From Roseococcus sp. SDR (lineage in GTDB: Bacteria; Pseudomonadota; Alphaproteobacteria; Acetobacterales; Acetobacteraceae), in the NCBI RefSeq assembly GCF_019083995.1, contig NZ_JAHRCU010000011.1:62001-126000 (forward strand): DNA of 64,000 nucleotides. Direction: 5' to 3'. Below the pieces are notes generated by a model, which ran no database searches, was not told where the DNA came from, and was given only the letters and a program-made list of their open reading frames with translations. Within the stretch, counting starts at the first letter, position 1. Every line of letters begins with the position of its first letter. Positions 18,679 through 55,428 of the stretch are shown here, in pieces. A program made the translations under genes and the position numbers.

Positions 18679-21600
18679 TCAAAGCACGAAGTCGGTGTTC
18701 ACCAGCACATGCAGGCCGGTCAGGATGATGACCGCCTCCGCCGCGCCGCCATTGCCCTGATCGATCTCGATGCGCGTATCGGTGCCCGATTGCGACTGGC
18801 GGATGGAGCCCTGGCCGCCGCCCAGGAAGGCGTTGCCCGCCACCAGGGTGAAAGCCTGGTCGCCCGCCAGGGTCAGGTTGGCGTCGATGGCCGACAGGTC
18901 GATGACATCGCCCTCGGCCCAGGCGAAATCCGCCACCCGGTCCGGGCTGGCCGCTGCGCTTTCACTGAGCGTGGCCCAGGTGAAGCGGTCCGCGCCCGTG
19001 CCGCCGGTCAGCGAGTCCTGCCCGGCGCCGCCGGCCAGCGTGTCATTGCCGCCACCACCGGAAAGGGTGTCATTGCCCGCCGCGCCATCCAGGCGGTTTG
19101 CGCCGCCATCGCCGGTCAAGCGGTCATTGAAGCCGCCGCCCAGCAGGTTCTCGATCCCCGCATAGGTGTCGCCATTGGCGATGCCCTGCGTGCCGGCGCC
19201 CGTGGCGAGATTGGCGGTGACGGCGCCGGTCGCGTCCTGGAAGCTCGCCGTGTCATTGCCAGCGCCACCGTCCAGCGCGTCCGCGCCGGCGCCGCCGACC
19301 AGCAGGTCATCGCCGAGCTGGCCCTCCAGCGTGTCGTTGCCGGCGAGGCCGGTCAGCGTATCGTTGCCCTGCAGACCCTCGATCAGGTCGTGGCCCGCGG
19401 TGCCGGTCAGGTTGTCATGACCGACGCCACCCTGGATGGGTGCACGCTCCACCGGCAGCGGCGCCACCGGCGTGCCGGGCACGAAGGTGATGCCAGGGAA
19501 GGGACCGGCCGGATTGGTATAGGGGTAGTGGCTGTTGATGATGATGGCGTTGTCGGTGTCGAAATAGAGCACCGTCTGGCCATTGACGGCCTGGACCGCA
19601 GTGAAGCCGGAATACCCGTAGATGGTGAGCGTGTCGCCCTGGCTTGGGTTGAAGCCGTCGAAGCGGTCCACACCGTCGCCACGCTGGTAGATGAAGTTGT
19701 CGGCGCCGCCGCCGCCATTCACCTGGTCGCCGACGACGAGGCCGGTGATGACACCGGCGACCAGCCGCGCCTTGCCGCTGTCCGTGCCGCCACCGATGGT
19801 GTCGTTGTTGTCGCCGCCGTCGATGATGTCGTTGCCGCTGCCGCCGAGGACGATGTCGTTGCCCTCATTGCCGACGATCGTGTCGTCGCCGCTGCCGCCG
19901 AGCACGGTGTCATCGCCGCGCTCACCCTGCATGTTGTCGTTGCCGGCGCCGCCCTCTTCCCAGTCATTGCCGTCGCCGCCCTCGACGACGTCGTTGCCGT
20001 CGCCGCCATAGATGACGTCATTGCCCTCATTGGCGTGAAGGTTGTCGTTGCCGCGGCCGCCCTGGATCTTGTCGTCGCCGGCATGGCCGATGATGGCGTC
20101 GTCGCCGTCATTGCCCTGCAGGCAGTCATTGCCGGCGAGGCCGTGGATCTGGTCGTTGCCGCCCAGGCCATCCACATGGTCCGAGCCCGTGGTGCCGACG
20201 AAGCCGTCATTGCCCGGGGTCAGCAGGGTGGTCGGCAGGTCGCAGGCGCCGACGACGTTGGGGATGAAGCCGGCATCCACAGTCGTTACGTTTTGCCCCT
20301 GGACCAGGGTGATGGTGCCGGTGCGGCCACCCGCGCCCGCGTCGCTGTCGCTCACGTCACTGCCGATGTCGCGCAGCGTGGGCGTGGTGCCGGGGGGCGT
20401 CACGAACTCGACGCTGTAGCTCCCCGGGCGGAGGTTGCCGAAATTGTAGAAGCCGCCGGCATCGGTGGTCGTCGTGGCGATCACGGCGCCGCCGGTATCA
20501 AGCAGGCGGACGGTGGCGCCGGCGATGCCGGGCTCCTCGCTGTCCTGCTGGCCGTCCCGGTCGAGATCGGCCCAGACGCGGTCACCGATCGAGCCGGCAA
20601 GCAGCAGCCCGGCGTCGCGGGTGTTGTTCGTCTGGCCCGAGGTGAGCGTGATCTGGCTCGTCCGCCCGTTGTTGATCTGGGCATCGCTGTCCAGCGCATC
20701 ATTTCCGGCATCGCGCGTGGTGAAGACCGTGCCGCCGGGCGCCACGAAGGTCACGCTGTAGGTGCCGGGAAGCAGGTTGGCGAAGCTGTAGGCGCCGCTG
20801 GTGCTGGTCACCGTGGTCGCGATGACCGTGCCGGTCGCGTCGAGCAGCCGCACCGTGACGCCGCGGGCATCGGCCTCGCCGCTGTCTTGCAGGCCGTTGC
20901 CATTGCTGTCCATCCAGACGCGATCGCCAATGGCGACGCGCTGGAAGAGGCCGGCATCCAGATCCGTCCGGGCATCGCCCGAGAAGATCATGGTGGGCGC
21001 GATCACGCCCGCCGCCGTCGCGTCACTGTCCGTGGCGTCATTGCCGCCCTGGTCAATCGGCGAGGTTTCGTAGCCGCTGGGGGCCACCACGCGCACCCCA
21101 TACTGGCCCGGGGCCAGGTCGCCGAAGCTGTAGAGGCCGCTGGCATTGGTGGTGGTGGTGGCGATCTCCGTCACGCCATCGGCCGCGAGCAGCCGGACCG
21201 AGACGCCGGACAGGCCAGCCTCGCCCGGATCCTGCACGCCATTGGCGTTCAGGTCGTGCCAGACGCGGTCGCCCAGCGTGGCGGGGACATAGACGCCCGC
21301 ATCCACGTCGCGCGTCGTCGTCGCCGGGACCACGGCGACGAGGCCGGTGATGCCGCTCGTCGCGTTCGGATCGCTGTCGATCGTATCGTTGCCGCCCTGG
21401 TCCTGCAGGGTGAGCTTGAGGCCGGAGGGCATGACGAACTGCACGCGGTAGTTGCCGGCCACCACCTCGTCGAAGAGGTATTCACCGCTGGCATTGGTGG
21501 TGGTGGTGCGGCCGGTCGGCGTGCCGTCGGCGCTCAGCAGGTTGACGGTGATGCCGGCGCGCGAGGCCTCGCCGGATTCCTCGAGGCCATCGCCGTCGCG

Positions 21601-24600
21601 GTCCACCCAGACGCGGCCGGTGAGGGCGCCGAGTTCGACGATCGCGGCATCCACGCTGTCATCATTTTCGCCGGATTCCAGGCTGATGATGCCGGTGCGG
21701 CCGGTGGTTGGGTTGGCGTCGCTGTCACGCGCGTCATTCCCGCCCAGATCCTGCTTGCCAATGGCGCGGTTGAGCGGCGCCACGAACTCGACACGGTAGT
21801 CGCCGGGGGCGAGATTGGTGAAGCTGTAGGCGCCCGCCGCATCGGTGGTGGTGGTCAGGCCCGTCGGCGTGCCGTCGGCGCGCAGCAGGCGCACCGTGAC
21901 ATTGGCCACGCCCAGCTCGCCGGCATCCTGGTCACCGTCATTGTTGGTGTCGAGCCAGACGAAATTGCCGATGGAGCCGGTGCGGTAGAGGCCGCCATCC
22001 ACGGTGTTCTCCACCTCGCCGGAGACGAGGTTCACCACATCGGTGCGGCCATTGGCGGCGATGTCGCTGTCGCTGCCATCGGCGCCGCTGTCCTTCAGCG
22101 TCGGGAAATAGCCGGGGCGGGTGATCTCCACGCGGTAGTCGCCCGGGGCGAGCTGCGTGAAATTGTAGCCGCCGGTGGCATCCGTCGTGATCGGCAGGAC
22201 GCCGGCGACGGGCGTGCCATCGGCGTTCAGCAGGCGGACCGTGGCGCCGGCCAGGCCCAGTTCGCCCGGATCCTGCTGGCCATTGCCGTTCATGTCCTCG
22301 AAGACCCGGTCACCGATCGAGGCCGGGCGATAGACACCGCCATCCAGCGAGTAGTCCTCGCCACCCGAAAGCAGCGTGACCGTCTCGGTCTTGCCGGTGG
22401 TGACGTTCGCGTCGCTGTCCAACGCGTTGTTCAGGCCGATATTGGCCTTGGTGAAGGGCGTGCCGGCATTGGGCGTGAACTGCACGGAGTAGGTGCCGGG
22501 GCGCAGATCGTCGAAGAGGTAGTTGCCGTTCGCATCCGTGACCGTGGTGCGGCCCGTCGGATTGCCCGAGGCATCCAGCAGGGCCACGACGCGGCCGGCG
22601 ATGCCGCCCTCGCCAGGGCCGCCCTGCAGGCCATCCCCGTTCACATCCTCGAAGAGCGTGCCGCCGAGCTTGGCGCCCTTGAAGAAGCCCGCATCCAGCC
22701 GCGCCTCGTTCTGGTCGCTCACCAGGGTGAAGGCGTCGCTGCGGCCGGTGCCGTTCACGTCGCTGTCGGTCGCCTCATTGGCGTTGGCGCCGGCATTCTG
22801 CGTGGAAGCGGTGAAGCCCGCGGGCAGGACCTGGACGGAGTAGCTGCCGGGGATCAGCCCGGTGAACTGGTAGAAGCCATCCGCCCCGGTCGTGGTGGTG
22901 GCGATGACATTGTTGCTGCCGTCCAGCAGCTGCACGGTCGCGCCGACGATGCCCGTCGCGCCGTCATTCTGCAGCCCGTCGGCGTTCATGTCCTCCCAGA
23001 CGCGGTCGCCGATGGTGGCGAGCTTGTAGAAGCCGCCATCCACGTTGCGGACATTGTCGCCGCTGGCCAGCGTGTAGACGGGCGTGATGCCGGAGCCCTG
23101 CGCCGCGTCGCTGTCCGTGGTGTCGGGACCGGTGTTGTCCAGCGTGCGCTTGAAGCCGCCGCTCTCGTCGAAGCGGACGCGATAGCTGCCGGGGATCAGA
23201 CCATCGAAGAGGTAGGAGCCATCGCCCGCCGTCACCGCCGTGCGGCCGGTGGGGGTGCCATCGCCATTCAGCAGCGTGACGGTGATGCCGGCCAGCACCG
23301 TGTCGCCCACATTGCGCTGGCCGTTGCCGTTCACGTCGGTGAAGGCGATGCCGCCGAGCGAGGCGCGGACGACCTGGACCGCCTCGTTCTCGCTCACCGT
23401 GACGGGCGAGGAGCCGGGGGCCACCGCATAGGGGTTCACCGGCACGGAGGAGACGACCTGGCCGGAATTGTCCAGCACCTTGCCCGCCGTGTTGCCCGCG
23501 ATGTCGGCCACCTTGGCCACCACGCGGAACACCACCTGGTCATTGGCGGTGACGGCATTGTCGAAGGCGTTGTGAATGTCGCCCAGGTTGAAGGAGAGCG
23601 TGCGCGTGCCGGCATCATAGGTGCCGGCGCTGCCGATGCTCAGCGCCGAGCCGGTGATGCCGCCGAGCGAGACCAGCTCGCTGCTGACGAGGTCGAGACC
23701 CGTGGGCAGCACGTCCCGCAGCACGATGCGCTGCGAGCCCTCGCCCAGCGTGGCGGTGACCAGGAAGGTCGCCTCCTCGCCGATGCCGACCGCATTGCCG
23801 ACCGTCGCACCGAGCGAGGTGGAGACCAGCGTCTTCACCACCGTGTTCACGATGTCGGTCGTCAGCACCGCCGGATCGGTCTCGGTGACCGAGACGCCGA
23901 GCACGGGGGCGGAGCTGTAGGTGACGCTCGCCGTGTTCGTGATGGCCTGGCCATCCACGATGTTGCCGGCCAGGCGCGCCTGATAGGTGATGGTGACGGG
24001 GGCCGCGCTCAGCAGGAACTGGTTGAGCGTGAAGTCGATATTGCCGCCCGTCTCGGTGACCGTTCCGGCCGTGGCCGTGGCGGTGCCCGCCACCAGCGTG
24101 ATGCCGGCCGGGATGATGTCGGAGAGGTTCACCAGGTAGGCGGGCGAGGTGCTGCCGGGCGCGTGGCTCAGCGTGATCTGGTAGGTGACCAGATCCCCCG
24201 CATCGCCGCCCTGGCCCGCGATCACGTCCTTGGCGATGACGAGGTCGGGGCGGACGATGTCGATCGCCGCGGGGTCGGTGGCGGTGCCGAGGCCCGGCTT
24301 GCCGCCGCCCGGCGCGAAGGTCTCCACGCGGCCCGTGTTGGTGAGCGTGCTGCCGCCGGTCGCCGTCGTCGCGACGCGGGCATTGACCAGGATGGTGACG
24401 GTATCGCCCGCATCCGTGTCATTGTCGCCGATGTTGACGATGGTGCCGAAGTCGAAGGTATAGGCGCCACCCGAAACGGAGGTGGCGGCCGAGCCCACGC
24501 TGAGCGAGGAGCCGCTGATGGTGGAGCCGATGCTCTCGACCGAGGCATTCAGGAAGGTCAGGCCGGTCGGCAGGCTGTCGGTGACGACGAGGCGCTGCGT

Positions 24601-27600
24601 GCCCTCGCCCACCGTGACGGTGAGGCGATAGGTGACCGTCTCGCCCGGCGCGGCGTCCGGATTGCCCGCATTGACGAAGCCCGAGCCGGTATTGGCGTCA
24701 CCGGTCGCGATCACCGACTTGTCGATGGTCGGCGCCAGCACGACGGTGCGGCTCTCGGTGTCCTGGATGTTGTAGCTGCGGCTGGCGAGATCCTCGGCCG
24801 CCGTCGGGTTGAGCGGATCGACCGGATCGGCCGGGTTGGTGTCGTAGGTCAGGCGGGCGGTGTTCGCCAGCACCTGGCCGGGCGTCACCGTATCGAGCGC
24901 GCGGGCCTGGTAGGTGATGGTGATCGTGGGCGCGCCCAGCGCGTAGAAATCCGTGCTCCAGGAAATGGCGTTGCCGACATTGCTGAGGATGCCGGCGGAG
25001 GTCGCCAGCGTGCCGGCGACGAGGACCATGCCCGTCGGGATCAGGTCGGTCAGCGCCAGGTCAAAGGCTGGCGCGTCCGAGTTCGCGTCGTGGCGGATGG
25101 TGATGCTGTAGTTCACCAGCGCGCCCGCATCGAGCGGCTGGCCGGGGGTGGCGAGCGTCGAGGATTTGTCGATGACGAGCAGCGGCTCGACCACATCCAC
25201 ATCCACGGTGGACATGTTGCTGGTGCTGGTGGGCGTCGTGCCGGAGATGCCGGTCTGTGCGCTGGCGGAGTTGGAGAGCAGGTCACGGTCGCCATTGGCG
25301 GCCACGTCGGTGACGATGGCCTTCAGGCGGATCACGATCACCTCGGCATCGGTATTCCCGTTGACGAGCGTGTTGCGGACATTGCCGAAGTTCAGCGTCC
25401 AGGTGTCGTTGCTGCTGTTGTTGCCGACATTGGACGAGGTGATGGTGGGCGCGCCGATCACGCCGCCCGAATAGGTGGTGAGCGCGGAGCCGACCGAGAC
25501 CACCTCGATGGAGCCGGGGATGAGCTGGAGATAGCCATTGCGGCTGCCCGTCGCATCCTCCAGCGCATCGATGATGCGCAGGTTGGGGCTGTCGCCCTCG
25601 GGCAGGCGGACGCGGATCTCGTAGGTCACCTCCTCGCCGATGGCGAGGTCGGGCTTGCCCGCATCATGCCGATCGCTCGGGATGATCCCCTCGGCGGCGG
25701 GCCCGCGGGTATCGATGAGCGAGGTGGCGATGATGGTCTTGGTGACCGTGGGCGCCACGATGGTGACGTTCTTGGTGGAGGAGCTGTCGACCACCCGGTC
25801 ATCCGGCGCCACATTGTCCATGGAGGAGCCCGACGCGGTGGCGGTGTTGGCCAGCACCTCGCCGGCATTGGCGTCGGCATCCACCTTCACGGCGAAGGTG
25901 ACGGTGACCGTCTCGCCCGGGTCGAGATATTCGACCAGGAAGTCGACATCCTGCAGGTTCGCGGCGGTGACGTCGGTGATGACGCGGCCGGCGGGGCCGC
26001 TGATGGTCACATTGCCCTGGACGGTCGCGTCCTGCAGCACGTCGGTCAGCGCATCCTTGATGCTGACGTCCCAGGCGCGGGCGGTGAAGTCGTTGGTGGC
26101 GGAGCCGGCGGCCGGCCTGTTGGGGTTGGTGACGGTGATCGTGTAGTTGATCGTGTCGTGTGCGTCGGCCGTGCTGGTGGGCGAGGTCTTGCTGATGGTG
26201 ACGTTGGGCGCCACCACCTCGACCTGCGACGTCGCCGTGGTCTCGTTGCGGCCGCTGCCGTTCGGATTGGCGGCGCTGACCTTCACCGTGTTGGTCAGCA
26301 CGTCGCCGCGCTGATTGAGGAAGGCGGCGAGGGCGTCCACCGAGTTCTTGACGCGGGCATCCACCTCCATCGTCACGGTCGCGGCCTGGGTGCCGGTCGT
26401 GTTGGCCGTGTTCAGGACGTCGCCGAATTCGAAGGTGGCGCGGTCATTTCCGTTGATGCCGTCGCTGTCGGAGAGGGTGATGGTGGGCGTCGTGTCGAAG
26501 ACGCTGCCGCCGCCAAGGCCGGTCACGCCCACGAAGCGCGCGGCCAGCATCTCCATCACGCCGCCGCCAGCGGCGTTGCTGGTGGGCAGCCAGTCTTCCA
26601 CGCGGAAATCGGTCATCCGGCCTTCCGGCACGGTGACGGTGATGACGTAGGTGACCGTCTCGCCGATGGTCACGTCGTCCAGCGCGTCATTGCCGGCGAG
26701 CTTGCCGGTGTGGCTCTCGCTGGTGGAGAGCACGGCCTTGATGGGCGTGGGCGCCTGGGTGGTGACCACGGCCGTGTCGGTGAGCGTGCCGCCGGGCGCA
26801 TAGGGCGTGCGGTCAATGCCGCCTTCCATCGCGGCGAAGTGCTCGATCGTGGCGGTGTTGGTGAGGTTCGCGCCGAAGGCGGCGACATTGTCCACCAGCT
26901 CGAGGTCGTAGGTGATGACGACGATGTTGTCGCCGCTGGTCGCGTGGAAGGCGCCGATGCTGCCGCTGTTCGTCGCGTCATCCAGGCGCAGGCCGCCCGC
27001 CGTGTCGAACAGGCCACCACCGACCAGGGTGTAGGTCAGCACATTGCCCGCGCCATCGGTGACGCGCAGGTTGAGGCCGCCGGCCGGGATCTCGAAACCC
27101 GGCGGCAGCGTGTCATGGATCAGGACGTCGAAGGCGCCCTTCAGGGAGGAGCCGGTATTCTCGACGACGATGGCGAAGGAGACGCGGTCGCCCGCATCCG
27201 CGCCGCGCAGATTGGCGTCGATCGGCGCGATGTCGAGATTGTTGCTGTTGATCACGCCGCTGAAGCGGTTGCCCGCGCTGCCCGGCGCGGTGAAGGTGAC
27301 GGGGCCGACGGAGCCCGTGGTGGTCGCCGCCGCGTTCGTGTCGGCGATCACGCCCTTCTTGATGTTCAGCTCGGGCTCACCCAGCACGAACTGGACGATG
27401 GCGTTGTCCTGGAACTCCTTGCCGAAGCTGTTGGTCTCGGTGCTGGTGACCTGGTTGGTCAGCAGCAGCCCGTCACCGAATTCCTCATCGCCCACCACGA
27501 CGGTGAACAGCAGATCAATGGTCGAGGACGGATTGCCCGGCGCGACTGCGTCGCCGAAGTCGAAGGTCAGCGAGTTGCTGGCGCTGTCATAGCTGATGCT

Positions 27601-29457
27601 GGGCAGCGTGGTCGGATCGCCCGAGCTGTCATAGGTGGCGCCCGGGCCCCACTTGGCGGCATTCACGCCCGGCGTCGCGCCATCCACAAGGTCGGCGAAG
27701 GTCATGCCGGAAATGGCCTTGAGCACCGGCAGCGGCAGGTAGTCGCGCAGCTGCACGTCATGCGCGCCGGTCAGCGGCATGTCGAGCTTGAGGCGGAAGG
27801 TGATCTGATCGCCGGCGGAGACGGGGCCCGGCGTGAAGGCGGTGTTGCCGTTGATGGCGTAGATGGATTTGGAGACCTCGCTCACGGGCAGCGAGACGCC
27901 GGCGCCGCTCACATCGGCCTTGTAGTTGTCGTGCTCATCCACGACGCCGCCGAAGTCGATGCCGTTGGAGAGCGGGTCGCCCTGGTCCACCAGCGGTTCG
28001 TTCGAGGGGGCGGGCGCGGTCGAGATGTAGCTCTGCTCGATCGTGCTCTGGAACTTCACCAGGACGGTGGCCTGGTTCTCGATGCCGCCGGGGCGGCCGT
28101 TCAGCACATCATCGATGCCGCGGTCCCGCATTTCCTGCGAAACGTTGAAGGTGATGGTCGAGATGCCCGTCGCGGCGTCGCGCACCACGTTGATGTTGGC
28201 GGCGGCGATGACGCCGCTGAACAGCGTGGCGCCGCCCTCGCGCATGGTGATGGTGACGGGCTTCGTCGCATCGAAGACCTGGCCGTCACCGAGTTTGTCG
28301 ATGAGGACGAGGTCGTCCATGTTGAAGTAGTTGGAGACCTGGCCGTCCAGCGTCCATTCCAGGTTCTCGCCGGCCTTGAGCGTCGTGACGGGCGCGACCG
28401 ACTTCTGCACGGCGATGGACTTCGCCGTGATGATGTCCTCGGGCCCCACGGGGTTGATTGCGAAGACCTGGATCGGGTCCCGCGCGTCCGTCGGATCCCA
28501 GGTGGCGTCGAGGCGGGCGTTGTTCTCCAGCACGCGGAAGGCGCCGGTCACCGGGTCGAGCACGGGCGTCACGCCGTCGCGCAGGAATTCGGGGACGTAG
28601 AACTCGATCTTCAGCGTGGGCACGCCGCCGACGCCGCCGGTGTAGCTGCCGGTGAAGTCGGCGCGGACCTCGCCCGTCGCGTTGTCGAAGAAGGTGGTGC
28701 CCGTGCCGTTCACGATGGAGACGGACTTGATGAAGGTGCCGTCCGGCATGGTGTCATGCAGCGTCAGGCCGGTCATGGTCTGGCCATCGGCGATCAGCGC
28801 CTTCACCAGCCATTCGCGCGGATAGGAGGGGCCGGTCGCCGTCTCCTGCTCGGGGCCGACATAATCCACGTCCAGCGCGATGACGGTGGGGTTGATGGCG
28901 AGGTTGGCGCTGGGGCCGAAGACGGGCGAATCGGTGGTGGGGTTCACCAGCGGGTCGAGGCCATAGGCGAAGCCGCCGCTGGCCTGGAGGTTGAGCGGCG
29001 TGCCGAGATCGGCCGAGCTCGAAACCTGAAGCTTCACCTCGACGTCGGCGGCGGTCTGGTCGGGCGTGAAGCTGCCGAAAGGCAGGCGCAGGACGACGAG
29101 CGTTTCGCCCGGCGTGCCGGTGATGGTGAGGGGGTTGCCCGCCGCGTCCTTGCTGAACGGGTGTGTGACAGAGCCGCTCGGCGGGAATTCGATGACCCAT
29201 TGTTCGAGCGCGGCGCCGAGATAGGTGGCCCCCTGGAAGATCACGCCGTCATTGGACGTCAGGCCCGTGCTGCCGAAGCCGGCCCCATCGGCGCCGTTCG
29301 TCGGCAGGACAAGGTTGATGTAGGGCGAGTAGCCGACGTTGGAGCCAGGCGCGCCATCCGGGACGTTGTCAAAGCGGAGCGTGAGCGTCTGCAGCCCACC
29401 GATCGGGGCGTTCAACGTGGAGCCGGCGAGGAACGAGACGATCGGGCGCGCTGACAT
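18679..29457 (-). CDS. Giant secreted adhesin-like protein: DUF11-like repeats, nine SdrD_B domains, RTX repeats
   Basis: 3592 residues. There is no N-terminal signal peptide. Residues 1-200 form a unique beta-rich domain; about 200-2030 is a long series of DUF11-type beta-sandwich repeats (pattern G-E-x-V-T-Y-x-I-T-V, then L-x-N-T-A-x-V). Nine SdrD_B (Cna-B-like) domains cover about 2034-3064, each opening with I-G-D-R-V-W-x-D-x-N-x-D-G-x-Q. Two blocks of RTX nonapeptides (G-G-x-G-x-D-x) lie at about 3080-3490, and a serralysin-like C-terminus of about 90 residues follows. The plan matches a type I-secreted, Ca2+-folded surface adhesin; transporter genes are not nearby. Only two cysteines are visible (C3072, C3112). 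It has its own promoter and structured leader upstream. Confidence 0.9.
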   Translation of the reverse strand: MSARPIVSFLAGSTLNAPIGGLQTLTLRFDNVPDGAPGSNVGYSPYINLVLPTNGADGAGFGSTGLTSNDGVIFQGATYLGAALEQWVIEFPPSGSVTHPFSKDAAGNPLTITGTPGETLVVLRLPFGSFTPDQTAADVEVKLQVSSSADLGTPLNLQASGGFAYGLDPLVNPTTDSPVFGPSANLAINPTVIALDVDYVGPEQETATGPSYPREWLVKALIADGQTMTGLTLHDTMPDGTFIKSVSIVNGTGTTFFDNATGEVRADFTGSYTGGVGGVPTLKIEFYVPEFLRDGVTPVLDPVTGAFRVLENNARLDATWDPTDARDPIQVFAINPVGPEDIITAKSIAVQKSVAPVTTLKAGENLEWTLDGQVSNYFNMDDLVLIDKLGDGQVFDATKPVTITMREGGATLFSGVIAAANINVVRDAATGISTITFNVSQEMRDRGIDDVLNGRPGGIENQATVLVKFQSTIEQSYISTAPAPSNEPLVDQGDPLSNGIDFGGVVDEHDNYKADVSGAGVSLPVSEVSKSIYAINGNTAFTPGPVSAGDQITFRLKLDMPLTGAHDVQLRDYLPLPVLKAISGMTFADLVDGATPGVNAAKWGPGATYDSSGDPTTLPSISYDSASNSLTFDFGDAVAPGNPSSTIDLLFTVVVGDEEFGDGLLLTNQVTSTETNSFGKEFQDNAIVQFVLGEPELNIKKGVIADTNAAATTTGSVGPVTFTAPGSAGNRFSGVINSNNLDIAPIDANLRGADAGDRVSFAIVVENTGSSLKGAFDVLIHDTLPPGFEIPAGGLNLRVTDGAGNVLTYTLVGGGLFDTAGGLRLDDATNSGSIGAFHATSGDNIVVITYDLELVDNVAAFGANLTNTATIEHFAAMEGGIDRTPYAPGGTLTDTAVVTTQAPTPIKAVLSTSESHTGKLAGNDALDDVTIGETVTYVITVTVPEGRMTDFRVEDWLPTSNAAGGGVMEMLAARFVGVTGLGGGSVFDTTPTITLSDSDGINGNDRATFEFGDVLNTANTTGTQAATVTMEVDARVKNSVDALAAFLNQRGDVLTNTVKVSAANPNGSGRNETTATSQVEVVAPNVTISKTSPTSTADAHDTINYTITVTNPNRPAAGSATNDFTARAWDVSIKDALTDVLQDATVQGNVTISGPAGRVITDVTAANLQDVDFLVEYLDPGETVTVTFAVKVDADANAGEVLANTATASGSSMDNVAPDDRVVDSSSTKNVTIVAPTVTKTIIATSLIDTRGPAAEGIIPSDRHDAGKPDLAIGEEVTYEIRVRLPEGDSPNLRIIDALEDATGSRNGYLQLIPGSIEVVSVGSALTTYSGGVIGAPTITSSNVGNNSSNDTWTLNFGNVRNTLVNGNTDAEVIVIRLKAIVTDVAANGDRDLLSNSASAQTGISGTTPTSTSNMSTVDVDVVEPLLVIDKSSTLATPGQPLDAGALVNYSITIRHDANSDAPAFDLALTDLIPTGMVLVAGTLATSAGILSNVGNAISWSTDFYALGAPTITITYQARALDTVTPGQVLANTARLTYDTNPADPVDPLNPTAAEDLASRSYNIQDTESRTVVLAPTIDKSVIATGDANTGSGFVNAGNPDAAPGETVTYRLTVTVGEGTQRLVVTDSLPTGLTFLNASVESIGSTISGSSLSVGSAATSVSGGAYTFDFGTIVNIGDNDTDAGDTVTILVNARVATTATGGSTLTNTGRVETFAPGGGKPGLGTATDPAAIDIVRPDLVIAKDVIAGQGGDAGDLVTYQITLSHAPGSTSPAYLVNLSDIIPAGITLVAGTATATAGTVTETGGNIDFTLNQFLLSAAPVTITYQARLAGNIVDGQAITNTASVTYSSAPVLGVSVTETDPAVLTTDIVNTVVKTLVSTSLGATVGNAVGIGEEATFLVTATLGEGSQRIVLRDVLPTGLDLVSSELVSLGGITGSALSIGSAGTYDAGTRTLSFNLGDIHNAFDNAVTANDQVVFRVVAKVADIAGNTAGKVLDNSGQVVSSVPVNPYAVAPGSSPVTVSENEAVQVVRASLGGIAFTDVNGNGQRNVGDTVLAGITVTLLNGDGTPTGRTAVTAGDGSYLFDGLIPGSYRVRFDESGGFKRTLDNTGPDTTDSDAAQGSGITPVYTLASGDNVRNVDGGFYKLATIGDRVWEDMNADGLQNDGATGIVGATVQLLDGSNNVIATTTTGADGFYQFTGLIPGSYSVQVLPAGFTASTQNAGANANEATDSDVNGTGRSDAFTLVSDQNEARLDAGFFKGAKLGGTLFEDVNGDGLQGGPGEGGIAGRVVALLDASGNPTGRTTVTDANGNYLFDDLRPGTYSVQFTPNAGTPFTKANIGLNNALDSDANVTTGKTETVTLLSGGEDYSLDGGVYRPASIGDRVFEDMNGNGQQDPGELGLAGATVRLLNADGTPVAGVLPITTDATGGYNFTQLAPGDYRVEITRPGYFPTLKDSGADGSDSDIAANGRTDVVNLVSGEVENTVDGGLYRTGSIGNFVWLDTNNDGDQDAGELGVANVTVRLLRADGTPTGLTTTTDAAGAYSFTNLAPGDYRVEFVAPLNRAIGKQDLGGNDARDSDANPTTGRTGIISLESGENDDSVDAAIVELGALTGRVWVDRDGDGLEESGEASRAGITVNLLSADGTPTGRTTTTNASGEYLFDEVVAGNYRVQFVMPSGLKLTLQDQGGNDTIDSDPNATSGITGLVAVVPATTTRDVDAGVYVPATLGDRVWHDLNANGVQDPGEAGLSGVSVRLLAADGVTEIATTTTNASGLYSFGDLAPGQYGVRVVAPSGYETSPIDQGGNDATDSDATAAGVIAPTMIFSGDARTDLDAGLFQRVAIGDRVWMDSNGNGLQDSGEADARGVTVRLLDATGTVIATTVTSTSGAYSFANLLPGTYSVTFVAPGGTVFTTRDAGNDALDSDAQINNGRTSQITLTSGQTNNTRDAGLLLAGSIGDRVWADLDRDGQQDSEEPGIAGATVRLLDTGGAVIATTTTDAGGFYNFGNLRPGSYSVEFVTPPGTTPTLRDIGSDVSDSDAGAGGRTGTITLVQGQNVTTVDAGFIPNVVGACDLPTTLLTPGNDGFVGTTGSDHVDGLGGNDQIHGLAGNDCLQGNDGDDAIIGHAGDDKIQGGRGNDNLHANEGNDVIYGGDGNDVVEGGDGNDWEEGGAGNDNMQGERGDDTVLGGSGDDTIVGNEGNDIVLGGSGNDIIDGGDNNDTIGGGTDSGKARLVAGVITGLVVGDQVNGGGGADNFIYQRGDGVDRFDGFNPSQGDTLTIYGYSGFTAVQAVNGQTVLYFDTDNAIIINSHYPYTNPAGPFPGITFVPGTPVAPLPVERAPIQGGVGHDNLTGTAGHDLIEGLQGNDTLTGLAGNDTLEGQLGDDLLVGGAGADALDGGAGNDTASFQDATGAVTANLATGAGTQGIANGDTYAGIENLLGGGFNDRLTGDGGANRLDGAAGNDTLSGGGGNDTLAGGAGQDSLTGGTGADRFTWATLSESAAASPDRVADFAWAEGDVIDLSAIDANLTLAGDQAFTLVAGNAFLGGGQGSIRQSQSGTDTRIEIDQGNGGAAEAVIILTGLHVLVNTDFVL
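18985..20220 (-). repeat. RTX (hemolysin-type Ca2+-binding) repeat blocks
   Basis: Coding repeats of 27 bases (nine residues, G-G-x-G-N-D-x-I-x). The first block lies at about 19790-20220 and the second at about 18985-19440, separated by a non-repetitive segment of about 110 residues (I-Y-Q-R-G-D-G-V-D-R-F and following). The repeats bind Ca2+ outside the cell and drive folding after type I secretion. The DNA repeats are imperfect. Confidence 0.85.
20265..23358 (-). repeat. Nine tandem SdrD_B-domain coding repeats
   Basis: Nine units averaging about 344 bp (about 115 residues). Each has the same plan: I-G-D-R-V-W-x-D-x-N at the start, V-x-L-L-x-A-D-G in the middle, T-T-T-D-A-x-G-x-Y-x-F, L-x-P-G-x-Y-x-V, N-D-A-x-D-S-D and a closing D-x-G-x-Y/F. 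The D-x-N-x-D-G loops look Ca2+-binding. Units are diverged at DNA level, so this is an old expansion rather than a recent slippage array. Confidence 0.85.
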
Positions 29458-52959: not shown

Positions 52960-53313
52960 TCAGCCGCCCGGCGTCCAGGCCTCATAATCGCCCCCGGTCA
53001 CGCGGCGCTGCCCGCCGGCATAGTCGTGGCCCTTGGGGCGCCAGGCCTGGGGCGTGCCGGTGAGGTTCGGCTGGTGCGGCTTCTGCCAGGGATACTTGGC
53101 CTCGGGCAGAGGCGCATCCGTGGTGTGGTGCAGCCAAGCGTGCCATTCGGGGGGCACGACCGACGAGTCCAGGCCCTTGGCCAGCGCCACCGTGCGACGG
53201 GTGCGGCCATAGACCGGGTCCGGCCGGCGCGACTCGTAATAGGTGTTGCCGGCCTCATCCCGGCCGACCTTGCGGCTGGTCATGCGGGTGAGGAAGAGAT
53301 CGATCGTGGACAT
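52960..53313 (-). CDS. NDUFA12-family complex I accessory protein
   Basis: 117 residues. NDUFA12/B17.2-type features: D-E-A-G-N-T-Y-Y-E-S-R, Y-G-R-T-R-R-T-V, P-P-E-W-H-A-W-L-H-H and Y-P-W-Q-K-P-H-Q-P-N. This small accessory subunit of NADH:ubiquinone oxidoreductase occurs in alphaproteobacteria and mitochondria. It marks the window as alphaproteobacterial. Start at 53313 fits the family; upstream sequence in frame reads into the intergenic region. First gene of the mlaD-DUF2155 operon. Confidence 0.9.
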   Translation of the reverse strand: MSTIDLFLTRMTSRKVGRDEAGNTYYESRRPDPVYGRTRRTVALAKGLDSSVVPPEWHAWLHHTTDAPLPEAKYPWQKPHQPNLTGTPQAWRPKGHDYAGGQRRVTGGDYEAWTPGG

Positions 53314-53380
53314 GCCGCATCTTCCCACAATTTCGCGGCGCGGCAAAGCATCCGGCGGCGTGCAGGGGCATGGGAGTTTT

Positions 53381-53428
53381 CCACAAGATGTTGTGGGCCG
53401 TTCCCGTTCTGGCCACATCATGCGGCTT
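53381..53428 (+). promoter_or_regulatory. NrdR-box-like palindrome upstream of the RNR-like gene
   Basis: CCACAAGATGTTGTGG (53381-53396) is a perfect 6+6 palindrome around GATG. A second, weaker half-conserved copy, CCACATCATGCGG (53413-53425), starts 32 bp further, three helical turns on. NrdR sites (consensus about ACACwATATwTwGTGT) occur in pairs at whole-turn spacing before ribonucleotide-reductase genes; this sequence has the CACAA/TTGTG arms. The ATG of the RNR-like gene is 65 bp downstream. TTTTCCACA (53377-53385) also resembles a DnaA box, so a DnaA site is an alternative. Confidence 0.45.
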
Positions 53429-53461
53429 CCCGGCGGAGGGGGCGCGGGTTAGGCTCAGGGC

Positions 53462-54964
53462 ATGGCACGCATCGCTGGAAGCTTGTGGGAAGGGGTCGCG
53501 CTGAGGCGCACCCGCATCGGCGCGGACCCCGACGCGCCGCCCCGCGCCGTCGCCCTGCCGGATTCCTGGGAGGATGACGCCGCGGCCGCGCTCGCCTCGC
53601 TGGTCCCGGGGGAGCGCCCCATCGCCCTGCCCCGGATTGCCGAGGCCTGGATCGCGCGGGCGCTGAAATCCGGTGAGAAGGCCGGGCTGATCACAGCGGC
53701 CGAGGCGCCGCATCTGGCCGAGGGCTGGCGCGCCCTGCTGCTGACGCGCCGCGGCGCGCCCGGCGCCGAATGCTGGCGCGGCGACGCCAAGGCCGAGCCT
53801 CGCTTCGTGCTGAACCTGCCCGCCTTCCTGGAACCCGAGGGCGGACTCGACCTCGAAGGCTATGCCGAGGCCTGTGCGCTGGCTGTGGTCTTCCTGGACG
53901 CCGTGACGGGCGGCAAGGCCGTCAAGCTGCGCCTGGGCTTCGCCGACCTCGCGGGCCTGCTGGCCGGGCTTGGCCTGCCCTATGACAGCGCCGAGGCGCG
54001 CGAGGTGGCGGCCGGGATCGCGGCGCTCACACGCGGTGCCGCCGAGGCGCAGAGCGGCCGGATGGCCGAGCGCCTGGGCGCGCGTGAGCCGATCGCACTG
54101 ATCTGGCCCGAGCCGCCGATGCAGACGCCGGTGCCCGGCCTCGCCGCCGCGGCCCGCGCTGCGCTGGATGCCGCCATGGCCTCGCCCGGATTGCGCCACC
54201 AGGCGCTGGTGGCCCTGGCCCCGGCCGACGCGGCCGAGGCGCTGCTGGGGGCCGAGACCGCCGGCATCGCGCCCGCGCCGGGTGCGACCCGCGCCGTGGA
54301 AACGCCGACCGGTGTGGTGGATGTGCCGACGCGGGCTGCGATGCGCGCGCCGCAATCGCGCGTGGCGGCGCTGCTGGGCCCGGTCAGCCAGGCCTCGCGC
54401 CGGGCGATGCAGGCGGCTGTCGCGCCCTTCCTGCACGCGGCCCCGCCCGGGCCGGTGGCGCTGCCTGCCGCGCCGCGCCCCGCCCCCGCCCCCAGGCCCA
54501 CGCTGCGCCGGCAGTCGGGCCAGACGCTGCATGTCACCGTCGGCGGGCATCGCGTGGCGCTGCGGACCGCCGAGGAGGATGGCGTGCTTCGTGAGATCGC
54601 CTTCAGCCTCTCCAAGGAGGGTGCCGCCTATCGCAGCCTGATGGATGCCTTCGCCCAGGCGGTCTCGGCCGGCCTCGCGCGGGGCGTGCCGCTCGCGGAT
54701 TACGTGGACGCCTTCGCCTATACGCGCTTCGGCCCGGCCGGCGCGGTCGAGGGCGACCCGGACATTCCCCGCGCGACCTCGGTGCTGGACTGGGCCTTCC
54801 GGCGGCTCGCCATGGATTATCTGGGCGGTGCGCTGCCGCAGCCCGAGGCCGAGGATGTGGCGCCGGGCAGCCTCTCCCGCGCGGCGGAGCAATCGCCGCT
54901 GCTGCCGCTCGACCTGCCGACGGTGGCGGAACGTCCGAAACGCAATCTGAGGGTTGTTGCCTGA
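53462..54964 (+). CDS. Shrunken class II ribonucleotide-reductase-like protein with TSCPD-type C-terminal domain
   Basis: 500 residues. From memory of alphaproteobacterial NrdJ (about 1200 residues), four segments match in order: V-A-L-P-D-S-W (near 30) to the NrdJ N-terminal V-x-V-P-x-x-W; D-L-E-G-Y-A-E-A-C and G-L-P-Y-D-S (171-176) to the barrel segment D-V-E-G-Y and G-L-P-Y-D-S; T-A-G-I-A-P (266-271) to T-T-G-I-E-P; and residues about 350-455 to the C-terminal domain (K-E-G-A-A-Y-R-S-L-M, G-V-P-L-A-D-Y-V-D-A-F, T-R-F-G-P). Only two cysteines (C104, C138) remain, too few for reductase chemistry. It probably binds or regulates rather than catalyses. Overlaps ridA by one base. Confidence 0.75.
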   Translation: MARIAGSLWEGVALRRTRIGADPDAPPRAVALPDSWEDDAAAALASLVPGERPIALPRIAEAWIARALKSGEKAGLITAAEAPHLAEGWRALLLTRRGAPGAECWRGDAKAEPRFVLNLPAFLEPEGGLDLEGYAEACALAVVFLDAVTGGKAVKLRLGFADLAGLLAGLGLPYDSAEAREVAAGIAALTRGAAEAQSGRMAERLGAREPIALIWPEPPMQTPVPGLAAAARAALDAAMASPGLRHQALVALAPADAAEALLGAETAGIAPAPGATRAVETPTGVVDVPTRAAMRAPQSRVAALLGPVSQASRRAMQAAVAPFLHAAPPGPVALPAAPRPAPAPRPTLRRQSGQTLHVTVGGHRVALRTAEEDGVLREIAFSLSKEGAAYRSLMDAFAQAVSAGLARGVPLADYVDAFAYTRFGPAGAVEGDPDIPRATSVLDWAFRRLAMDYLGGALPQPEAEDVAPGSLSRAAEQSPLLPLDLPTVAERPKRNLRVVA

Positions 54965-55428
54965 TGTCGAAGATCGAAACGCGCCTGGCCGAGCTGGGCC
55001 TGACCCTGCCCGAGGCCGGCGCGCCCATCGCCAACTACGTGCCCTTCACCGTCTCGGGGAAGATCATCTACGTCTCGGGCCAGGTGCCGCGGAAGGATGG
55101 CAAGATCCATCCGGCCGGCCATGTCGGCGCGGGCGTCTCCGTCGAGGAGGCAAAGGCCGCGGCGCAGCAATGTTTCCTCTCGGTGCTGGCCCACGCGAAG
55201 GTGGCGGCGGGCGGTGACCTGGACCGCATCAAGCGCGTGCTCCGCCTCACGGGCTATGTGAATTCCACGCCGGATTTCGGCGATCAGCCGACGGTCATCA
55301 ATGGCGCCTCGGACTGCGCCGTAGCCGTCTTCGGCGAGGCCGGGCGGCACGCGCGCAGCGCGGTGGGCGTCGCGGCGCTGCCGGGTGGCGCGGCCGTCGA
55401 GGTCGAGGCGATTCTCGAACTGGCCTAA
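54964..55428 (+). CDS. RidA-family protein (YjgF/YER057c/UK114)
   Basis: 154 residues. Family pattern: L-P-E-A-G-A-P-I-A-N-Y at the start, S-G-Q-V-P-R-K-D-G, Q-Q-C-F-L-S-V-L-A-H and the late A-R-S-A-V-G-V-A-A-L-P, where the conserved Arg binds the carboxylate of imine or enamine intermediates. The length matches the longer RidA subgroup (about 150). It is joined TGATG to the RNR-like gene upstream. RidA detoxifies reactive enamines from PLP enzymes; the link to the upstream protein is unclear. Confidence 0.9.
   Translation: MSKIETRLAELGLTLPEAGAPIANYVPFTVSGKIIYVSGQVPRKDGKIHPAGHVGAGVSVEEAKAAAQQCFLSVLAHAKVAAGGDLDRIKRVLRLTGYVNSTPDFGDQPTVINGASDCAVAVFGEAGRHARSAVGVAALPGGAAVEVEAILELA

Follow-up and report, generated by a model that had tools for sequence, protein, structure and literature searches.

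The window analyzed here, a stretch of 64,000 nucleotides from a contig of Roseococcus sp. SDR (Acetobacteraceae), carries on the plus strand at 53462-54964 a gene with an ATG start that encodes a 500-residue, non-catalytic derivative of the class II ribonucleotide reductase (RNR) NrdJ, hereafter the relict. Its stop codon overlaps by one base (TGATG) the start of a RidA-like gene (54964-55428, plus strand), and it is divergent from an NDUFA12-like gene (52960-53421, minus strand, for which a later start near 53313 looks likelier) and the MlaD and DUF2155 genes. The names of these four neighbors are putative and rest on inspection of their sequences. An open reading frame of 545 codons lies opposite the relict on the minus strand (53255-54892) and was regarded as a shadow frame due to the high GC content of the coding DNA. 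A search of the window with Rfam for a riboswitch or other RNA gave 0 matches above the gathering scores. Elsewhere in the window, both strands are open for about 10.8 kb at 18679-29457 (3592 aa on the minus and 3581 aa on the plus strand), probably one giant gene and its shadow.

Two Pfam domains were identified in the relict. The RNR barrel (PF02867) was matched over 156 residues, 117-272 (53810-54277; E 2.4e-8, 33.5 bits against a cut-off of 23.9), which indicates homology to that barrel, and the TSCPD or IscU-like domain (PF12637) was matched at residues 358-451 (54533-54814; E 2.8e-9, 37.6 bits against a gathering score of 22.8). The similarity is thus not confined to the last 100 residues. 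No Pfam match was found within residues 1-115 (53462-53806), but the alignment with NrdJ identified this region as a shrunken N-terminal part (LWEGVALRR..DPD..LPDSWED), in which RRGAPGAECW of the relict is aligned with QmaAPNSPQW of NrdJ. The top NCBIfam match was NF005736 (PRK07562, an NrdJ of 1222 aa) with 151.6 bits, which does not reach the equivalog cut-off of 1737, and a sequence search of the PDB found 7b9q/7b9p, a vitamin B12-dependent RNR (from R. sphaeroides according to the title), at E about 1e-6. The first-pass annotation had described a shrunken, probably non-catalytic class II RNR relative with segments in NrdJ order, and the profiles and the landmark alignment described below bear this out across 50 relatives, whose homologous segments follow one another as in NrdJ. 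The details that it had listed were also present: 500 residues, two cysteines (residues 104 and 138 in the translation) and the motifs GLPYDS and TAGIAP, which are aligned with YDS and CDTTGIEP of NrdJ.

After the TSCPD domain the relict ends in a tail of its own, which consists of a PLLPLDLP motif (residues 479-486; 54896-54919), an R-rich stretch and a final LRVVA. P479, L481, P482, L483 and P486 are conserved at 90% or more of 47 aligned rows, and most of the relict C-termini end in a PLLPLDLP...RR.LRLV-like tail, with those at L104 and L105 as exceptions. Two functions considered for this tail were rejected. The hexapeptide clamp-binding motif, which the tail resembles, has a leading Gln, which was found in only 1 of 50 C-termini (L020, where the tail is one residue shorter), and mimicry of the NrdB C-terminal tail does not fit the NrdB of the host, which ends in ...PEGAIEIDARH, unlike ...LRVVA.

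To locate what had been lost, we aligned the 50 relicts with 16 full-length NrdJ and read off the columns of the landmark sites, namely the redox Cys, loop-1, loop-2, the finger loop and the phosphate loop. The stretches of the first redox Cys, loop-1, loop-2, the finger loop (NPCSE) and ACNLAS were unfilled in all 50 relicts, and neither the finger loop with its thiyl-radical Cys nor the two active-site redox Cys was found in any of them. Compared with the NrdJ at L095, the gap amounts to about 330 residues in two pieces that flank a short doubtful segment. The phosphate loop APTGTI is rewritten as APADAA in the relict of the window, the majority of relicts having PPDAA. In the alignment, the relict C-terminus has nothing that corresponds to the Zn-finger redox tail of NrdJ; the near-complete C-terminal domain noted in the first pass is therefore correct for TSCPD but not for this tail. 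The number of Cys per relict varies from 0 to 9, with none in four of the 50, and no column has Cys in more than 13 of 50. Given that the radical loop, the active-site Cys and the Zn-finger tail are gone and that no Cys is conserved, thiyl-radical chemistry is excluded and the relict is unable to work as an RNR. Full-length NrdJ (NF005736/PRK07562; 7b9p) shares its locus and the order of homologous segments with the relict, but has 1200 aa against about 500, and the effector loops are among the parts that the relict lacks. A C-terminal Zn-finger/redox tail is not universal in class II RNRs; in full-length NrdJ of this group it stands where the relict has PLLPLDLP...LRVVA.

These losses also bear on the suggestion that the relict senses nucleotide or cobalamin through an old effector or cofactor site. 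The ancestral enzyme bound both ligands and the promoter described below looks dNTP-controlled, but the first redox-Cys, loop-1, loop-2 and finger-loop stretches are unfilled in 50/50 relicts and PTGTI has become PADAA here. Such a sensor, which the first-pass annotation had offered as one option, is thus weakened by the missing effector-loop stretches and the rewritten substrate phosphate loop, and we consider it improbable.

The relict is an in-place descendant of alphaproteobacterial nrdJ, which encodes an adenosylcobalamin-dependent RNR, and not a second copy. Among 29 relict rows examined for neighbors (two of which, L044 and L103, are probably one genome), MlaD was found on the other strand in 29, NDUFA12 in 23 and RidA in 20; the locus L091 had the neighbors, while its relict fell below that cut-off. 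Full-length nrdJ of other alphaproteobacterial families lies at the NDUFA12/MlaD/DUF2155 locus in 6 of 11 genomes and is linked via RidA-FemAB in one further genome, with no match at E 1e-15 in the remaining four. In family f119, full-length nrdJ was found at the same NDUFA12 locus as the relict in all three genomes. Because full-length nrdJ of other families occupies this locus, we conclude that nrdJ shrank in place. In a quick tree of 487 shared columns, the 30 relicts included form a single clade with a long stem (SH-aLRT 100). In its C-terminal TSCPD part, the relict shares 42-57% identity with NrdJ from the other sampled families. A recent copy of another NrdJ was also considered and rejected: in the tree, the full-length g74 NrdJ falls among those of other families, away from the relict, and NDUFA12-MlaD neighbors were found at 0 of 5 g74 full NrdJ loci. 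The term paralogue, used in the first pass, does not suit a gene at the ancestral nrdJ locus, the more so as the RNR barrel search of the host genome described below gave no other NrdJ.

The relict is widely retained. The relict alignment matched 115 of 120 genomes sampled from the order, all listed under Acetobacteraceae, and most of the matches constitute one open frame, including those in genomes of 1.7-2.2 Mb, while several are split by contig ends. The matches were weak in three genomes of genus g112 and contained a stop in two genomes, G155 and G213. In G155 (genus g68; C1:19411-20954) the match is split in two, and a TGA interrupts one of the halves. TSCPD was found in 232 of 249 Acetobacteraceae genomes, a count that takes in other TSCPD-bearing class II enzymes. 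A second search, in which the relict alignment was run against the 17 TSCPD-less genomes plus an incomplete one, matched 13 of the 18; those without a match were G013, G106, G163, G206 and G237, the last two being fragmented and 90-92% complete. No relict was matched in the four genomes of genus g83 (G102, G163, G200 and G233) or in G106, though NrdB is present in them. The absence of a match in g83, G106, G206 and G237 suggests that NrdAB can work without the relict. At the g83 loci (L153-L156) NDUFA12 is found without an adjoining relict, and another class II NrdJ above the TIGR02504 cut-off is found in three of the four genomes (G102, G200 and G233). A distant relative was also found in a viral contig collection (L152:3001-4317; 29% identity over query residues 117-455).

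Pairwise dN/dS varied from 0.066 to 0.385 in 12 of 13 relict pairs, the other pair being saturated, and of three segments cut by length the one with TSCPD had the lowest dN/dS in 10 of the 12 pairs. Constraint is seen in TSCPD, in the tail and in a small number of barrel segments. In genera g67 and g112, however, remnants of the N-terminal part and the barrel persist without a recognizable TSCPD (Pfam was run on one of them, L157), so that TSCPD is not in every lineage the part that was kept. Their proteins (L157-L161) keep further barrel segments (HGTL.GAP and an ERHAIG-like one), the opposite cut to that of the relict in the window. That the relict is a decaying, functionless gene, i.e., a pseudogene before its loss, could be argued from the missing catalytic part, from g83 and G106, which are without it, and from the stops in G155 and G213, but we find this scarcely credible, as 115 of 120 genomes match, most of them in one open frame, dN/dS is far below 1 and the promoter box is conserved. 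Given the breadth of retention, the low dN/dS and the conserved promoter palindrome, the relict is not a pseudogene.

An RNR barrel search of the host genome found only the relict and a class I NrdA, with NrdB adjoining NrdA; the full-length nrdJ whose presence elsewhere in the genome had been proposed for checking was not among the matches. Pfam found no ATP-cone in the host NrdA or NrdB. The working enzyme of the host is thus predicted to be a class I NrdAB without an ATP-cone. Across the 120 sampled genomes NrdB was found in all, whereas class II NrdJ_Z exceeded its cut-off in 6, and in genus g74 a full-length NrdJ was found at another place, plus the relict. A second, apparently functional class II NrdJ also occurs in part of Acetobacteraceae (L056, L059, L063, L066, L071, L072, L111 and L116), with frames of about 760-860 aa, an NPCGE/NPCAE loop and a Cys-rich end.

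The coexistence of both proteins in g74 (L095/L096, L098/L099, L100/L101 and L102/L103) raises the question of whether the relict assists or inhibits a full class II NrdJ encoded separately, in the way that NrdJb is a partner to NrdJa. We regard this as very improbable, given that the host has no class II enzyme, that 114 of 120 genomes have no NrdJ above the NrdJ_Z cut-off and that the relict has no counterpart of the Zn-finger electron-transfer tail of NrdJb. NrdJa and NrdJb of Pseudomonas aeruginosa constitute a split class II RNR (PMC4520616), the IscU-like domain being on a chain of its own (PMC9669993), and the f88 and f9 proteins described below are the closest to this layout. NrdJb, however, has a Zn finger and a redox Cys pair and works with NrdJa, while the relict has no Zn finger and the host no NrdJa.

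Upstream of the relict lies a 16-base palindrome resembling the NrdR box, CCACAAGATGTTGTGG (53381-53396, plus strand), 81 bases before the start codon, and 32 bases downstream of it a degenerate second box (53413-53428, plus strand), which is weak, with 5 mismatches, and has kept the left half. NrdR boxes described in the literature come as two 16-bp palindromes with a spacing of 15 bp in E. coli (PMC12176259). A scan with an NrdR consensus found 53381-53396 as the only site in the 64 kb, which by itself is not significant, since 45 of 100 shuffles did likewise, and found nothing in the nrdAB region. With an adapted pattern and up to 2 mismatches, the box was found in 34 of 48 relict promoters compared to 0.06 in dinucleotide shuffles, but this pattern was adapted after the window had been seen and the promoters of related genomes are not independent. 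Only promoters with 150 nt upstream were counted, and 2 of 50 were dropped as too short. The box lies at -80 to -84 in 31 of the 34 promoters that have it; it is missing in the other 14, and the second copy, 32 bases on, is mostly half-degenerate.

Because the pattern had been adapted in this way, a matrix was also trained on 25 promoter sites of nrdJ and nrdAB outside Acetobacteraceae, picked by the NrdR consensus, although some of these sites look spurious. With this matrix, 34 of 48 relict promoters exceeded the 99th percentile set by 1883 control windows, which is a conservative control, since some windows may partly overlap the box; the control maximum equals the best score of the relicts. 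The host nrdA frame is also preceded by a similar box, at -91, which is followed 31 bases further by a poor one, and box pairs 31-32 bases apart were found upstream of several nrdJ or nrdAB elsewhere. These observations suggest that the relict promoter is under RNR-type control via a putative NrdR-like box.

Shortened forms of nrdJ are not limited to Acetobacteraceae. In a class-wide sample, the relict search matched 81 of 114 genomes, and the lack of any match in the other 33 indicates that outright loss of nrdJ is common. Of 79 matches outside Acetobacteraceae, 75 were in the TSCPD region and three, among the matches listed (G400 is outside these), were barrel-only. By eye and among the matches listed, 72 of the 75 TSCPD-region matches lie in frames of 1180-1364 aa and three in short frames, namely those of G380 (family f88, 278 aa), G043 (f9, 282 aa) and G381 (f89, 667 aa), all three at the NDUFA12 locus; f89 is represented by this one genome, whose assembly is listed as 10% contaminated. 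Further analyses of the order of G380 revealed the short form (273-294 aa) in 23 of 24 f88 genomes and the full form (1196-1218 aa) in 24 of 25 f119 genomes, while in the order of G043 TSCPD was found in 14 of 16 f9 genomes, in frames of 279-301 aa in 12 and shorter ones in two. The NDUFA12 locus was read in 11 f88, six f9 and one f89 genomes. In nine f88 genomes, one f9 genome and one f89 genome, the RNR barrel search found no full NrdJ, and all 11 had a class I NrdA, 61-72% identical to that of the host, with NrdB adjoining. In three of three searched f119 genomes, full NrdJ was the only RNR.

Of NrdJ, only the C-terminal TSCPD part is left in the f88 and f9 proteins, and the G380 protein shares 69% identity with full NrdJ across 121 residues (L165 compared to L086). 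The linker motif SxG(F/Y)xR after TSCPD was found in 16 of 19 full NrdJ, 11 of 11 f88 proteins and 5 of 6 f9 proteins, of which the remaining one is truncated; the f9 protein retains part of the Zn finger without the last redox cysteines. The f88 proteins (L165:7391-8224 and L168-L177), whose genomes are 1.0-1.5 Mb, have a conserved N-terminal stretch, in most of them ..YLVETYYTCTFKVNH..LDVKLDNRKTK.., that was not recognizable as a part of NrdJ. In a tree that includes the cut-down forms, with L167 and several relicts as long branches, f88 is placed beside full-length f119, a family of the same order (SH-aLRT 94.9). Separate shrinkage events are favored because the layouts differ and f88 adjoins full-length f119, though the AU tests do not settle this, as a single origin of the cut-down forms is not rejected (p 0.29-0.31, 127 columns).

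The predicted structure of the whole relict is too weak for details (mean pLDDT 56.6, pTM 0.48), and the alignments behind both models consist of 11 mostly close relatives. The Foldseek matches of this low-confidence model are nevertheless RNRs, with 7b9p at the top (E 1.3e-6, TM only 0.25, rmsd 10), which agrees with the RNR fold anticipated in the first pass. For TSCPD (73.3/0.67), the top PDB matches are IscU/SufU, which are weak (E 0.03, TM about 0.4-0.5). A 2022 paper places the IscU-like (TSCPD) domain at the C-terminus of class II RNRs or NrdJb, gives two Cys, an Asp and a further Cys or His as the cluster ligands of IscU, and states that no role of the IscU-like domain has been reported (PMC9669993); C-terminal parts of class II RNRs have been tied to oligomer formation and electron transfer (PMC5704485, PMC4520616). 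The relict shares PF12637 and, weakly, the fold class with these domains, but in the relict the domain outlives the enzyme, and the Cys ligands of an IscU scaffold are absent, with no Cys in residues 340-500.

The main rival to a role in dNTP supply is that the relict keeps a job of NrdJ apart from dNTPs, via TSCPD or the remnant barrel, for example as a scaffold for a neighboring pathway (NDUFA12/complex I, RidA) or as an IscU/SufU-like sulfur-transfer adaptor. It could explain the linkage to NDUFA12 and MlaD across families, often with RidA, the weak resemblance of the TSCPD model to IscU/SufU and the closeness of the TSCPD-only protein of G380 to full NrdJ. However, Fe-S or persulfide chemistry would lack a conserved cysteine, RNR control is suggested by the NrdR-like box, and descent from an nrdJ that stood at this locus accounts for the linkage with the neighbors. 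We therefore judge such a job unlikely, if worth serious attention.

We favor instead, tentatively and with a little less than even confidence, that the relict, as an RNR derivative without catalysis but still under RNR-type control, acts through contacts with other proteins and probably influences dNTP supply. Protein contact fits the observations that the nucleotide-binding parts are gone or rewritten while TSCPD, barrel segments and the tail are constrained, and the regulatory or scaffolding role named in the first-pass annotation is still the best class of explanation. We infer the following sequence of events. With class I NrdAB in place, the catalytic part of nrdJ, about 330 residues round the radical loop and smaller pieces, would have been cut out, and the non-catalytic protein would have been kept as a small barrel remnant, TSCPD and a conserved new C-terminal tail. 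The NrdR-box-like site would have been kept as well, so that, if NrdR binds this site, a shortage of dNTPs probably leads to joint production of the relict and NrdAB. TSCPD may then dock on a former partner of NrdJ, or on NrdAB itself, and tune dNTP supply. Such tuning would be useful because the resident NrdA shows no ATP-cone to sense dATP.

The near-universal retention of the relict and the cut-down versions elsewhere suggest that the original enzyme had a second job. More tentatively still, we propose that alphaproteobacterial class II RNR had a second, catalysis-free function, mainly in TSCPD, and that several lineages independently cut nrdJ in place after takeover by NrdAB, keeping this function in a protein of its own (of about 500 aa in Acetobacteraceae and 273-301 aa, the C-terminal part only, in two small-genome lineages), which perhaps supplies the allosteric arm that an NrdA without ATP-cone is missing. 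Betaherpesvirus M45/UL45 are R1 homologues without activity that are kept for another job and act on host signaling. Like the relict, they are descendants of an RNR large subunit kept without activity, but they are viral and class I derived. Among the matches listed in a search of open PubMed Central full texts, no description of the relict was found.

A TSCPD domain kept without the enzyme separates two questions, in that a deletion phenotype could not stem from lost catalysis and the role of the domain becomes testable. The findings suggest that a switch of RNR class need not end in gene loss, and they make such proteins candidate regulators of class I RNRs without an ATP-cone.
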